A DNA stretch of 64,000 nt, from the NCBI RefSeq assembly GCF_001618955.1, contig NZ_LVYV01000054.1:186001-250000 (forward strand). Direction: 5' to 3'. Origin of the DNA: Tardiphaga robiniae. Its GTDB lineage: Bacteria; Pseudomonadota; Alphaproteobacteria; Rhizobiales; Xanthobacteraceae. Below the pieces are notes generated by a model. It did no database searches, was not told where the DNA came from, and saw nothing but the letters and a program-made list of their open reading frames with translations. This document shows, piece by piece, positions 38,237-43,167 of the stretch. Numbering within the stretch: position 1 is the stretch's first letter; each line of letters starts with the position of its first letter. The position numbers and the translations under genes were made by a program.

Positions 38237-38326
38237 TGGCGGAGAGGGGGGGATTCGAACCCCCGATGGGCTTGCACCCATGCCGCATTTCGAGTGCGGT
38301 ACAATCAACCACTCTGCCACCTCTCC
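38237..38326 (-). tRNA. tRNA-Ser (anticodon CGA)
   Basis: The minus strand folds as a class II tRNA with acceptor GGAGAGG pairing with CCTCTCC, a discriminator G and an encoded CCA. The anticodon loop is CTCGAAA with anticodon CGA, and a long variable arm (GGCATGGGTGCAAGCCC) and T loop (GGTTCGAATCC) follow. Serine tRNAs are common integration sites; an integrase remnant follows its 3' end here. Confidence 0.95.
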
Positions 38327-38890
38327 AAGGCGCCAAGACCCGCGGTCGCCCGTGGGTGGTTGCGCGGAGTTCTAGGCGAGGATGGCGGGCCAGACAAGAC
38401 GGGCAGAGCGGAAAATCCGCACCCAATCGCCCGCAGAGCCGCAAAAGCTGGCTTGAGCGGGCGCGTCGACCAGAAGGCTCCCCTTTTCGTTACAGATTCG
38501 CAGCTGCAACGGACGCGATGGTCGTGTCTGCCGCATAATGAGCCGCGGAGGCGCCAGGATGATTCGCTGACAGATGTCCGCCTCGGCCATTGGCCGAGGC
38601 GGCACCGGGACCACCTGGCCTCCGCGCACTCAGCCACCCGCAGCACCGATGCAAAAGATGACGATGAAAGTGCCCGGGACAAACCGGCATGGCGCGAGCA
38701 CATCCATGATGCGAGCACTCCGCGCAATTACACCGCGACCAGAAGTCGGGCACCACCGACTGGCTCGATCCGAAAGCGTCGCGCGATGGTGCGCATCATT
38801 CCGCCGCCGCGAAGGCCGGCAAGCGCCGGAAACTGAAGAACTGAAAGTCATGACGCCGGATCGCTGTGGCGGGCGCGGCAATTGTCCAAC
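38327..38890. other. Intergenic region between tRNA-Ser and the ROK kinase gene
   Basis: These 564 bp show overlapping frames on both strands but none with convincing composition, motifs or a ribosome site. The only clear structure is a 25-nt perfect palindrome at 38578-38602, annotated separately. The stretch follows a probable integration site and may be degraded element sequence. Confidence 0.4.
38578..38602. repeat. Perfect 12-bp inverted repeat with 1-nt centre
   Basis: The arms CCGCCTCGGCCA and TGGCCGAGGCGG are exactly complementary around a single T. No T-run follows, so it does not look like a classical terminator. It could be an operator, a recombination site or a bidirectional hairpin. 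Confidence 0.8.
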
Positions 38891-39985
38891 TCAATCCTTG
38901 TCCTTCTTCGCTTTCTTGTCGTCCTTCTCTTTCTTGCGGTTGGTGAAGCGGGCATTGCCCAGCCCCGTTCCGATCGTCAGCACGCCCCATCGTTCGAAGT
39001 CCTGCATGAAAGGGACTTCACTGAGGCCTTGGACAACGCCGTCATTGTGCATGAGCACCGCAGTATCGTGATCCCCGATTGTGGGAATGCCTTCGGCGAG
39101 CAAGGCCGGCAGGTTGAACTTGCTGCTTTCCCAATTACCCGGAAGATTCTGCGCTCCCTTCGCGATGGTGCCGTCTTCGTTGATCACCCCCGGGCACGAG
39201 ATGCCGATGAACGGCGCCAGCTTGAAGCCTTCCTTGTCGGCGGCGCTGGTCAAGTCCTTCAGCATCTTCACCAGGCGCTTGACGGCGCCTTCGCGCGTCG
39301 GCTCGTCATTGGCATGTTTCCAGAGATCGGATTTCCACACCGCGGCCCTAGAGAGATCCTTCGATTTCTTCCATGCGGTTTCAACCACGCCGCAACGGAT
39401 GTTGGTGCCGCCGATGTCGACCGCGAGAATGCTGTCGTAACCTTCGAAAATCCACGACGGCGCCAGATGCAGGCAGCCGATCAAACCGGCTTCATCGGGA
39501 TGAAAACGGATCGGCACCAGATCTACCTTCAAGCCTTCCGCCTTGAGGATGATATCGGCACGCGCAATCGCGAGCTCGCCGACGCGACTTTGCCGGAAGC
39601 CGCCGCCAACCACGATACATTCGGTATCGGCCCAGGATTTGGTCTTGAAGAAGCGCCGGACGACGTAAGCCAATTCCTGGGCGAACTCCTCGATCGCGCC
39701 ATGCACCAGCGCTGCTGCCGGCACATCGTCGCCGAGCAAAATCTCATCAAGGCTGGATTTGCTGATCTCGTTGGCGACTTTCTCGCCGAGCGGATCCTCG
39801 CCGTTTTTCTTCAGCGGCTTGCGCAGATCGTCCAGAATTTTTTGAAATGCGCCCTTGCTGGCCCGGTCGCCGAGAAAGCCGTCATCGTCCTTCAACTCGA
39901 TGTTGAACGTGTCCACGTCAACGGATGGCAGCCGCTTGGCACCGTGATTGCCGATGCCGACGGTCGTCATTGTTTCTTCAGCCAT
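38891..39985 (-). CDS. ROK-family sugar kinase with apparently permuted domain order
   Basis: The 364-residue protein contains all ROK/hexokinase-like motifs but in unusual order. The nucleotide-phosphate motif DIGGTN is at 190-195, the catalytic GDHD at 304-307, and the second phosphate motif IGTGLGNARF at 338-347, close to the C-terminus. The adenosine-side elements that normally come last are in the N-terminal half: IVVGGGFRQSR at 124-134 and DEAGLIGCLHLAP at 164-176. The zinc motif of classical ROK proteins is absent. It ends with a lysine-rich tail. It should phosphorylate a hexose or similar sugar with ATP in the cytoplasm. Nothing adjacent shows which sugar. Confidence 0.78.
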   Translation of the reverse strand: MAEETMTTVGIGNHGAKRLPSVDVDTFNIELKDDDGFLGDRASKGAFQKILDDLRKPLKKNGEDPLGEKVANEISKSSLDEILLGDDVPAAALVHGAIEEFAQELAYVVRRFFKTKSWADTECIVVGGGFRQSRVGELAIARADIILKAEGLKVDLVPIRFHPDEAGLIGCLHLAPSWIFEGYDSILAVDIGGTNIRCGVVETAWKKSKDLSRAAVWKSDLWKHANDEPTREGAVKRLVKMLKDLTSAADKEGFKLAPFIGISCPGVINEDGTIAKGAQNLPGNWESSKFNLPALLAEGIPTIGDHDTAVLMHNDGVVQGLSEVPFMQDFERWGVLTIGTGLGNARFTNRKKEKDDKKAKKDKD

Positions 39986-40082
39986 ATTGCCCCTGCCAGA
40001 CTAGAACCGCATGATAATGCCCGGGGAACCCATTGGTTTCATCGCCGGAGCAACTGCGTTACGCTGAGTGGTAAATACGGCG

Positions 40083-40985
40083 TCAGGGCCTTGGCTGTTT
40101 CATGCTCTCCTTCAGGCTTTCCAGCAGCAATTGCGCCGGTCGACTCAAGCCCTTGTCGCGCACGGCGACGACGAATTGCCGCTTCGCCCAGTCATTGCTG
40201 AGCGGAATGACTTTCAGCCCCAGTGTCTGCTGGATGGTGGACGCTTTTTCCTGCGGGATGATCGCGACAGCCAGTTGCGCCGCGACGATGCGATAGGCGG
40301 CGTCCACGGTGGAGACCTGAATGCGATAGCGCATCTGCTTGCCAGCCGCCGCCGCGACACTGCGCTGCATGGTCTGCATGATACTCCGCGCGACGATGTC
40401 GACATGCTCGAAGTCGATCGTGTCCTCGAACGATACTGACGTGCGTTTCGCAAGCGGATGATCGGGGTGCACCACCACCGCGAGCTGATCGCGGTGATAG
40501 GGAAACGTCTTGAGGCCGCGCAGGTCGACGGCATCCCAGCACACGCCGATATCGGCGCGCCCTTCCTCGACACCGCGCACGACTTCCCAGATCTCGCGCT
40601 CTTCCAGACTGACGCGCACGTCGCGATAGCGCTTGGCGAACAGGCTGATGTCTTCCGGCAGTACCTGGGCCACCGCTGACTTCGAGGCAAACACCCGTAC
40701 GTGGCCCTGCACGCCATCGGCAAAGGCGCCGAGTTCGGCCTGCATCCGGTCGAGCAACTGCAGCGACTCCCGTGCGTAGCGACATAGCGCTTCACCGGCA
40801 GCCGTCACCGTGACGCCGCGACGACCGCGTTCGAGCAACTGCACGCCTGCTTCGTCTTCCATCTGGCTGATGCGCTTGCTGACCGCCGAAGGCACGATGG
40901 CCTCGCGCTTGGCAGCATTGGCGATATTGCGCTCCTCGCAGACGGCGATGAACAGGCGGAGCGACACGGGATCAAAGCTGCGCAT
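40083..40985 (-). CDS. LysR-family transcriptional regulator of tarD
   Basis: The start at 40985 (MRSFDPVSLR) has GGAG 6 bp upstream; the frame is open to 41045 but overlaps the operator region. The 300-residue protein has the LysR helix-turn-helix at about 5-60 (LFIAVCEERNIANAAKREAI, then SAVSKRISQME) and a periplasmic-binding-like effector domain (VRVFASKSAVAQVLPEDISL, then QLAVVVHPDHPL). It is divergent from tarD with 154 bp between starts, the classical LysR arrangement, so it probably activates tarD with tartrate or a related acid as effector and represses itself. Confidence 0.88.
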   Translation of the reverse strand: MRSFDPVSLRLFIAVCEERNIANAAKREAIVPSAVSKRISQMEDEAGVQLLERGRRGVTVTAAGEALCRYARESLQLLDRMQAELGAFADGVQGHVRVFASKSAVAQVLPEDISLFAKRYRDVRVSLEEREIWEVVRGVEEGRADIGVCWDAVDLRGLKTFPYHRDQLAVVVHPDHPLAKRTSVSFEDTIDFEHVDIVARSIMQTMQRSVAAAAGKQMRYRIQVSTVDAAYRIVAAQLAVAIIPQEKASTIQQTLGLKVIPLSNDWAKRQFVVAVRDKGLSRPAQLLLESLKESMKQPRP

Positions 40986-40995
40986 AGAATCTCCG

Positions 40996-41079
40996 GATGG
41001 CTTTAGCCATCTTATATTGGAACCTAAAAGATGAATATTGACCATTTCAGAGATGGCTTATTTTGGCGTATGCCATCTC
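40996..41079. promoter_or_regulatory. Two inverted repeats, candidate LysR operators between the regulator and tarD
   Basis: The first is GATGGCT-TT-AGCCATC at 40996-41011, perfect 7-bp arms, next to the LysR start. The second is GAGATGGC-N14-GCCATCTC at 41050-41079, perfect 8-bp arms, upstream of tarD. Both share the GATGGC/GCCATC core, as expected for recognition and activation sites of one LysR protein. Confidence 0.6.
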
Positions 41080-41139
41080 GAGCTGGCTGCAAGTCGGCCT
41101 CGAGCATCTGAAGACCGCCTCAGGAAAGTCACAGGATCC

Positions 41140-42303
41140 ATGCGCATCGTCGACATCCGGGAGCGCACCGCTCCGATCGCCTCCCCCATCGCTAACGCCT
41201 TCATCGACTTCAGCAAAATGACCTTGAGCCTGGTCGCCGTGGTTACCGACGTGATCCGCGACAGGAAACCCGTAATCGGCTACGGCTTCAATTCGAACGG
41301 CCGCTACGGCCAGGGCGGCCTGATCCGCGAGCGCTTCGCGCCGCGCATTTTGGAAGCCAAGCCCGACAGCCTGATCGACGCCACCGGCGACAACATCGAC
41401 CCGCACAAGGTGTGGGCGACGATGTTCACCAATGAGAAGCCCGGCGGTCACGGCGAGCGCTCGGTCGCCATCGGGACCATCGACATGGCGGTCTGGGATG
41501 CGGTCGCCAAGATCGCGGGCAAGCCGCTGTTTCGCCTGCTCGCCGAACGCTACGGCACCACGGCCGATCCCCGGGTATTCGTCTATGCCGCTGGCGGTTA
41601 CTACTATCCCGGCAAGGGTCTCGAAGGCCTTGCCTCGGAAATGAAGGGCTATCTCGATCGCGGCTACAATGTCGTGAAGATGAAGATCGGCGGCGCGCCG
41701 CTGGCCGACGACTGCAAGCGTATCGAACATGTGCTGAAACTGCTTCCGGCAGGGGCCAAGCTTGCTGTCGACGCCAACGGCCGCTTCGATCTCGACACGG
41801 CCGTCGCCTATGCCAAGGCGCTGCGCGAATACGACCTGTTCTGGTATGAGGAAGCCGGCGATCCGCTCGATTACGAGCTGCAGGCAAAGCTCGCCGAGCA
41901 TTATCCCGGCCCGATGGCCACCGGCGAGAACCTGTTCTCGATGCAGGACGCGCGCAACCTGATCCGTTACGGCGGCATGCGCTCGGACCGCGACTGGCTG
42001 CAATTCGACTGCGCGCTGTCTTACGGCCTCGTCGAGTATCTCCGCACGCTCGACATGCTGAAGAGCTACGGCTGGTCATGGCGCCGCTGCATCCCGCATG
42101 GCGGTCACCAGATGTCGCTGAACATCGCGGCCGGCCTCGGTCTTGGCGGCAACGAGTCCTACCCTGACCTGTTCCAGCCCTATGGCGGGTTCCCTGACGG
42201 CGTGAAGGTCGAGAACGGCCATATCGTGATGCCGGAACTCCCGGGCATCGGCTTCGAGGGCAAGTCCGACCTGATCAAGGAAATGCGCAGCTTGGCGTCG
42301 TGA
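41140..42303 (+). CDS. tarD: D-tartrate dehydratase (enolase superfamily)
   Basis: The start at 41140 (MRIVDIRERT) gives 387 residues; earlier ATGs in frame lie in the operator region. The residues of the Bradyrhizobium japonicum D-tartrate dehydratase (K184, D213, E239, E265, H322 as I recall them) line up with K182, D211, E237, E263 and H320 here at a constant offset of two. They lie in VVKMKIGG, AVDANGRF, FWYEEAGDP, ATGENLF and IPHGGHQ. It dehydrates D-tartrate to oxaloacetate using Mg2+. The divergent LysR regulator probably controls it. The sequence also closely follows the family over its C-terminal half. Confidence 0.92.
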   Translation: MRIVDIRERTAPIASPIANAFIDFSKMTLSLVAVVTDVIRDRKPVIGYGFNSNGRYGQGGLIRERFAPRILEAKPDSLIDATGDNIDPHKVWATMFTNEKPGGHGERSVAIGTIDMAVWDAVAKIAGKPLFRLLAERYGTTADPRVFVYAAGGYYYPGKGLEGLASEMKGYLDRGYNVVKMKIGGAPLADDCKRIEHVLKLLPAGAKLAVDANGRFDLDTAVAYAKALREYDLFWYEEAGDPLDYELQAKLAEHYPGPMATGENLFSMQDARNLIRYGGMRSDRDWLQFDCALSYGLVEYLRTLDMLKSYGWSWRRCIPHGGHQMSLNIAAGLGLGGNESYPDLFQPYGGFPDGVKVENGHIVMPELPGIGFEGKSDLIKEMRSLAS

Positions 42304-42438
42304 GGATGATGCGCCACTAAGGTACTGGCAGAAAACGTAAAACACCGTCATGGCCGGGCCTGACGTCCGAGGGGACAGCGCGTCCGTTAAAGCGGGCGCA
42401 AATACCGGTAGCCGCCAAGCGGCCCAAGACCCTGTTTT

Positions 42439-42459
42439 GGCCGGTTTTCCGGCCGTTTT
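42439..42459 (+). terminator. Rho-independent terminator after tarD
   Basis: The stem GGCCGG/CCGGCC with a TTTT loop is followed by GTTTT. It lies about 135 bp after the tarD stop and just before the rplU promoter, so it would separate the two units. The stem is short but GC-only. Confidence 0.6.
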
Positions 42460-42461
42460 CC

Positions 42462-42489
42462 TTGACTCATCGCCGTCGCGCTCTATAAA
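42462..42489 (+). promoter_or_regulatory. Housekeeping-type promoter of rplU-rpmA
   Basis: A TTGACT box at 42462-42467 and a TATAAA box at 42484-42489 are separated by 16 bp, close to the sigma-70 consensus. Transcription would begin near 42497, leaving a leader of about 175 nt before rplU. No conserved leader structure could be named. Confidence 0.65.
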
Positions 42490-42672
42490 GCACCCTTCGG
42501 CGCAGGTTTTTCCTCGCGCCGATTGTTTTTGCACGGCCCGCAGCAACGTCTACGAGCCAACCAAAAACTTCGCAGTCTCCTTCGGGAAGTCCGCGGTGAA
42601 CCCTTATCGACTGAACAAGAAGCCGTCCCGGATCTGATCCGAGGATGGGATCGAACACGAAGGAATATAACG

Positions 42673-43167
42673 ATGTTCGCAGTCATCAAAACCGGCGGCC
42701 GGCAATACCGCGTCGTTCCGGATGATGTGCTCGAGATTGGCAAGATCGCCGGCGATGTCGGAACGATCGTGCAGCTTGGTGAAGTTCTCGTGCTGGGCGG
42801 TGATACGCCTGTGCTCGGCCTGCCTTTGGTGGCTGGTGCGTCGGTTGCGGCCGAAGTGCTCGATCACAAGCGCGGCCCCAAGGTCATCTCTTTCAAGAAG
42901 CGCCGCCGCAAGAATTCGAAGCGCAAGCGTGGCTACCGTGACGAGCTCACGATGATCCGCATCACCGAGATCCTGGCCGACGGCAAGGCGCCGACGATCG
43001 GACCTCGCCCGAAGCGTGAGAAGCCGGTCGTGGCCGCTCCGGTTGATGGCGACGAAGCTCCTGCCAAGAAGGCGCCGGCGAAGAAGGCCGCTGCTCCGAA
43101 GGCAGCCGCCGCCAAGCCTGCTGCAGCCAAGAAGCCGGCTGCGAAGAAAAAGCCCGCCGCGGAATAA
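42673..43167 (+). CDS. rplU: 50S ribosomal protein L21 with long basic C-terminal tail
   Basis: From the ATG at 42673 (AAGGAAT upstream) the protein has 164 residues. The first 103 form normal L21 (MFAVIKTGGRQYRV, then FKKRRRKNSKRKRGYRDEL), and the last 60 form an alanine-, lysine- and proline-rich extension with repeated PAKK and AAKP units. Such tails occur in alphaproteobacterial L21 but vary in length. The protein binds 23S rRNA in the large subunit. It is followed by rpmA, the usual partner. Confidence 0.95.
   Translation: MFAVIKTGGRQYRVVPDDVLEIGKIAGDVGTIVQLGEVLVLGGDTPVLGLPLVAGASVAAEVLDHKRGPKVISFKKRRRKNSKRKRGYRDELTMIRITEILADGKAPTIGPRPKREKPVVAAPVDGDEAPAKKAPAKKAAAPKAAAAKPAAAKKPAAKKKPAAE

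Follow-up and report, generated by a model that had tools for sequence, protein, structure and literature searches.

Natural circular permutations that affect a whole enzyme are uncommon. The kinases of the ROK family (PF00480), among them N-acetylmannosamine kinase, glucokinase and beta-glucoside kinase, carry their motifs in the linear order phosphate-1, ND, phosphate-2, ExGH/zinc segment and GGG. Other described systems relevant here are the N-acetylmannosamine kinase domain of human GNE (2yhw), which keeps the canonical order, the polyphosphate glucokinase/glucomannokinase (1woq, NF045942), the duplicated, unpermuted human hexokinase II (2nzt) and the ROK repressors such as Mlc and Lmo0178. 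Searches of the open-access literature found no account of circular permutation in a ROK protein, a glucokinase, another sugar kinase or an ASKHA protein, in agreement with the original prediction, which knew of no described case in the family.

The protein presented here is encoded in a stretch of 64,000 nucleotides of Tardiphaga robiniae (the window) and, after rotation, is homologous to ROK kinases over nearly its full length. The two-lobe fold (as predicted), the phosphate-1, phosphate-2 and adenosine motifs and the catalytic Asp are common to both, whereas the protein has swapped halves and lacks the ExGH and CxCGxxGCxE motifs. Its reading frame starts with ATG and coincides in position with the gene for which the original prediction had proposed a ROK kinase with circularly permuted halves (Table 1). 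The swapped order is borne out, since IVVGGGFRQ (residues 124-132) and DEAGLIGCLHLA (164-175) lie in the N-terminal half, and DIGGTN and GTGLG in the C-terminal half, so that the motifs run GGG, phosphate-1, ND, phosphate-2; a second ROK motif set, an outcome that would have spoken against permutation, was found nowhere in the 364-residue chain. One of the motifs originally named, GDHD (residues 304-307), is not catalytic and varies among relatives; H313-N314-D315 takes its place. An open frame of 439 codons runs antisense to the gene (38882-40201, plus strand), probably a side effect of high G+C codon usage, and a tRNA-Ser(CGA) gene lies downstream (38237-38326, minus strand). The Lys/Asp-rich C-terminal tail is absent from distant relatives.

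Table 1. Features of the permuted ROK-type gene and its upstream region (window positions)
Feature	Position	Strand	Basis
Complete permuted ROK-type gene, 364 aa	38891..39985	-	ORF
Residues 14-174, equivalent to ROK C-terminal half (remaining domain II and closing helix)	39464..39946	-	hhalign, N-half model
Residues 175-184, linker from old C-terminus to old N-terminus	39434..39463	-	P176 kept in at least 99%
Residues 185-350, equivalent to ROK N-terminal half (domain I and first hairpin of domain II)	38936..39433	-	Pfam, VIA
Phosphate-1 motif DIGGTN, residues 190-195	39401..39418	-	D190, G192, G193, N195 invariant
Catalytic HND motif, residues 313-315, with D315 as predicted base	39041..39049	-	Invariant in 147 sequences, aligned to ROK ND
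Phosphate-2 motif GTGLG, residues 339-343, close to new C-terminus	38957..38971	-	Invariant
Adenosine motif GGG, residues 127-129	39599..39607	-	Invariant
GFLGD, residues 36-40, without cysteines, where ROK has the zinc/substrate motif	39866..39880	-	Alignment, conservation
Lys/Asp-rich C-terminal tail, residues 351-364	38894..38935	-	Mostly pLDDT <50
Upstream element GAAACCAATGGGTTCCCCGGGCATTATC, conserved; resembles an ECF promoter in relatives, -10 degenerate in the window copy	40013..40040	-	Upstream comparison

The Pfam ROK model matches residues 187-349 of the window protein with its positions 2-141 of 294, and the score (26.8 bits) lies above the gathering score (22.9), yet across half of the model only; at E-values up to 1 the same model matches 20 of 21 permuted members. 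The other end of ROK proteins is found earlier in the chain, as positions 218-286 of 288 of the NCBIfam NanK model match residues 102-175, and by phmmer residues 221-286 of E. coli NanK (2aa4) align weakly with 108-175 (E 0.052). An hhalign comparison between a 21-relative profile (A2) and 43 canonical ROK proteins from other genomes yielded two blocks in swapped order, residues 187-343 on ROK 6-138 (E 5.5e-12) and residues 66-177 on ROK 197-301 (E 5.9e-7), half-matches that, judged by these profile scores, far exceed chance. Rotation of the family at residue 183 joined them into one 289-column block (E 1.6e-17). Across 48 cut points the score, 88.8 without rotation, had a single peak at residue 183 (126.0), with lower values on either side, next to the rotation at residue 185 that the original prediction had proposed; in a control scan of canonical ROKs against each other the unrotated sequences scored best. 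After rotation of single sequences, positions 2-290 of 294 of the Pfam ROK model match one divergent relative and positions 3-283 of 291 of the BglK model another member; the window protein and the consensus gain little against Pfam alone, full-length matches being confined to divergent members. A rotation scan by hmmsearch with a narrow canonical ROK HMM (25 close sequences) gave scores that were too weak, and this model was replaced by the 43-sequence profile and hhalign.

AlphaFold2 run on A2 gave a confident single fold (mean pLDDT 88.5, pTM 0.87) with the two lobes of ROK proteins. Sequential structural alignment against ROK proteins covers only residues 182-350, placed on the ROK N-terminal half; the best match of the C-terminal half is the GNE domain (182-350 on 405-554 of 2yhw, Z 14.0, 1.9 A, 147 residues), and residues 184-350 of the full model align with 0-145 of 3r8e (Z 10.7, 143 residues). 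The N-terminal half modelled alone, with moderate confidence (pLDDT 78.5), aligns through residues 21-174 with 144-297 of 3r8e (141 residues) at a Z of 8.9, which is barely above the background level quoted for the tool, and also with the C-terminal halves of 3vgk (141-310) and 6q26 (143-280); in Foldseek its matches were weak, the best (E 0.05) being a ROK glucokinase. Because the two halves match complementary parts of 3r8e, they tile one ROK chain. On hexokinase II the model (32-350) aligns with residues 288-690 across the repeat junction, as expected of a permuted unit, with an rmsd of 33 A because the repeats are arranged unlike the permutant.

Profile scan, rotated sequences and structure together thus uphold the circular permutation. 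The protein is very probably a natural circular permutant of the ROK fold in which a linker joins the old termini, and which would act as an ATP-dependent kinase with a zinc-free, remodelled substrate site. In the proposed architecture, the old N- and C-termini, adjacent in domain I, would be connected by the linker of about 10 residues, and the first beta-hairpin of domain II, directly past the phosphate-2 loop, would hold the new termini, so that both lobes and the interdomain cleft could form again. ATP would be bound through DIGGTN, GTGLG and GGG, and D315 would serve as the base, activating the sugar hydroxyl that receives the phosphoryl group. The cut lies beside the lost ExGH/zinc-finger segment, and substrate recognition would have been remodelled there without zinc.

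The loss of this segment is, together with the size of the family, what the analysis adds to the original prediction. The zinc motif CxCGxxGCxE occurs in none of 20 permuted proteins as against 35 of 43 canonical ROKs, a canonical rate that is inflated since 25 of the 43 were selected by this motif, and ExGH in 0 of 20 as against 37 of 43. The ROK signature PROSITE PS01125, in what we take to be its correct form, matches 0 of 20 permuted and 31 of 43 canonical proteins; the permuted chain is opened within the signature, so that a full match is impossible. As the new termini fall in the hairpin after phosphate-2, beside the ExGH/zinc segment, cut and loss coincide. At this place the family instead conserves H14, L19, D25, E30, F37, G39 and D40 (147 sequences). 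The permuted protein is therefore a ROK-derived variant, placed outside the canonical ROK members because of its motif order and the missing ExGH and zinc site.

The permuted form is represented by 147 distinct sequences from Bradyrhizobium and relatives, rhizobia, Methylobacterium and a second proteobacterial class. All 17 other genomes of the genus examined carry it in collinear form (some matches partial or split), as do other families. Within the class, 17 of 385 genomes gave a match, which in one case was only a weak canonical-ROK match; the permuted form was also detected on 207 plasmid records, rhizobial and related, and in genomes from a further class of the phylum. Of 567 candidate loci confirmed in a scan of GTDB genomes, the best 80 are nearly all labelled Bradyrhizobium, Rhodopseudomonas, Nitrobacter, Tardiphaga, Afipia or unclassified relatives. 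Two genomes of the same family (G618, G634) carry the permuted gene twice. Residues conserved in at least 99% of the 147 sequences comprise D190, G192, G193, N195, R197, C264-P265-G266, Q279-N-L-P-G283, W285, H313-N-D315, G339-T-G-L-G-N-A345 and G127-G-G129. A simple count for congeneric pairs puts dN/dS within the genus at about 0.07-0.1, leaving out one pair (L009) that was out of register, and the family is under purifying selection. A clean E-value gap separates it (<1e-100) from canonical ROKs (about 1e-6). A search of 289 genomes of the class with the rotated profile found no unpermuted sister; all matches were either permuted members, which appeared as two half-matches in swapped order, or weak canonical ROKs. 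The permuted form is thus an old, well-kept family of rhizobia and other Proteobacteria and not a one-off.

The upstream regions of many members carry promoter-like elements. The EcfG motif of R. etli is GGAAC-N16-CGTT (PMC3892343), and the permuted gene is not named in the main text of that paper. An EcfG-type promoter, GGAAC-N16/17-[CG]GTT, is present upstream in 14 of 28 distant homologues (0.12 expected from shuffles) and in 19 of 49 members of a second set, which was collected later and is partly redundant. Of 102 upstream regions from the Bradyrhizobium clade, 1 has the strict motif and 89 have the form G[ACG]AAC-N16/17-NGTT (1.74 expected), mostly 53-70 bp ahead of the start, counts that are not independent events as these regions are mutually related. 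The window copy deviates from this form at the -10 (CATTAT). In the same clade the spacer often carries a AACCNNNNGGTT-like palindrome, perhaps a regulator site. These elements suggest stress control in many relatives. As for the neighbourhood, otsB (trehalose-phosphatase) is divergent and adjoins the permuted gene on Rhizobium/Shinella plasmids (L042, L203, L205, L207, L208, L210), and in Sinorhizobium meliloti a neighbouring peptidase gene carries an annotation for the NAGGN osmoprotectant system. The rplU gene is nearby in 75 of 80 related Bradyrhizobiaceae-type loci; in the window LysR and enolase-superfamily genes (40083-43167) separate the permuted gene from rplU, likewise in a close relative (L043).

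Alternatives concern both the origin of the chain and its activity. Pfam labels residues 187-349 only and the N-terminal half lacks ROK signatures, so an unrelated domain might be fused to a truncated ROK N-terminal half, with the C-half motifs coincidental, the outcome that the original prediction had named as fatal to it. We consider this extremely improbable, as the N-terminal half corresponds by profile (E 5.9e-7) and by structure to the ROK C-terminal half, and the rotation score peaks at residue 183. As the route to the present order, the fusion of two separate half-ROK genes, in place of duplication and trimming of a tandem ROK pair, is rather unlikely; the genomes sampled speak on both sides, as they hold no tandem ROK fusion or other intermediate and no split ROK genes either.

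Regarding activity, the missing sugar-contact ExGH and zinc segment, and upstream elements that suggest stress regulation and not a sugar operon, would suit a catalytically dead or regulatory derivative in which the permuted fold senses a sugar or nucleotide, like the ROK repressors, with which it has a kinase-like fold in common. Against this improbable reading, the 147 sequences show little or no variation in D315, DIGGTN, GTGLG and GGG, and Pfam found no HTH family in the window protein, where the repressors have a winged-helix DNA-binding domain; a single relative gave a weak TetR C-terminal match (E 0.099). It is just as improbable that the protein is a permuted polyphosphate-dependent glucokinase (PPGK-like) drawing on polyphosphate under stress. 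Polyphosphate glucose phosphotransferase is the top NCBIfam model (25 bits for the unrotated window protein, 30.1 for the rotated consensus), the rotated profile matches 1woq among other PDB entries and relatives have stress-type promoters, but these scores are about one tenth of the curated cut-off of 250 bits, and other ROK models score similarly, BglK even higher for one member.

Most likely, then, the permuted protein is an active sugar kinase that uses ATP and lacks zinc, and the conserved nucleotide and catalytic residues argue for its activity; of the permuted ROK kinase originally proposed, the permuted fold stands and the activity is predicted from these residues. A hexose is the candidate substrate, glucose being the first guess because no other ROK and no Glk glucokinase (PF02685) was matched in its own genome, in which zwf is present; in the search of this genome for hexokinase (PF00349) the controls gave no match. 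The protein is possibly the only glucokinase-type enzyme of the genome and may supply glucose-6-phosphate, and it could be used under stress. On the other side, some genomes with the permuted gene also carry a canonical ROK (G343), and the target could be other than a hexose, as the substrate residues are not conserved. A wider reading, which we regard as tentative and somewhat doubtful, is that an ancient permutation gave rise to a zinc-free sugar-kinase family spanning at least two proteobacterial classes, under ECF (general stress response) control and with an unrecognised substrate, e.g., in trehalose or compatible-solute metabolism.

A conserved and widespread permutant is a natural test of the tolerance of the actin-like kinase fold to rewiring, with the termini relocated into the lobe that bears the substrate and zinc site. 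For annotation, the database label "ROK family protein" masks the fact that zinc and substrate residues cannot validly be transferred to these proteins by signature. In genomes like that of T. robiniae, the permuted protein may be the missing glucokinase.
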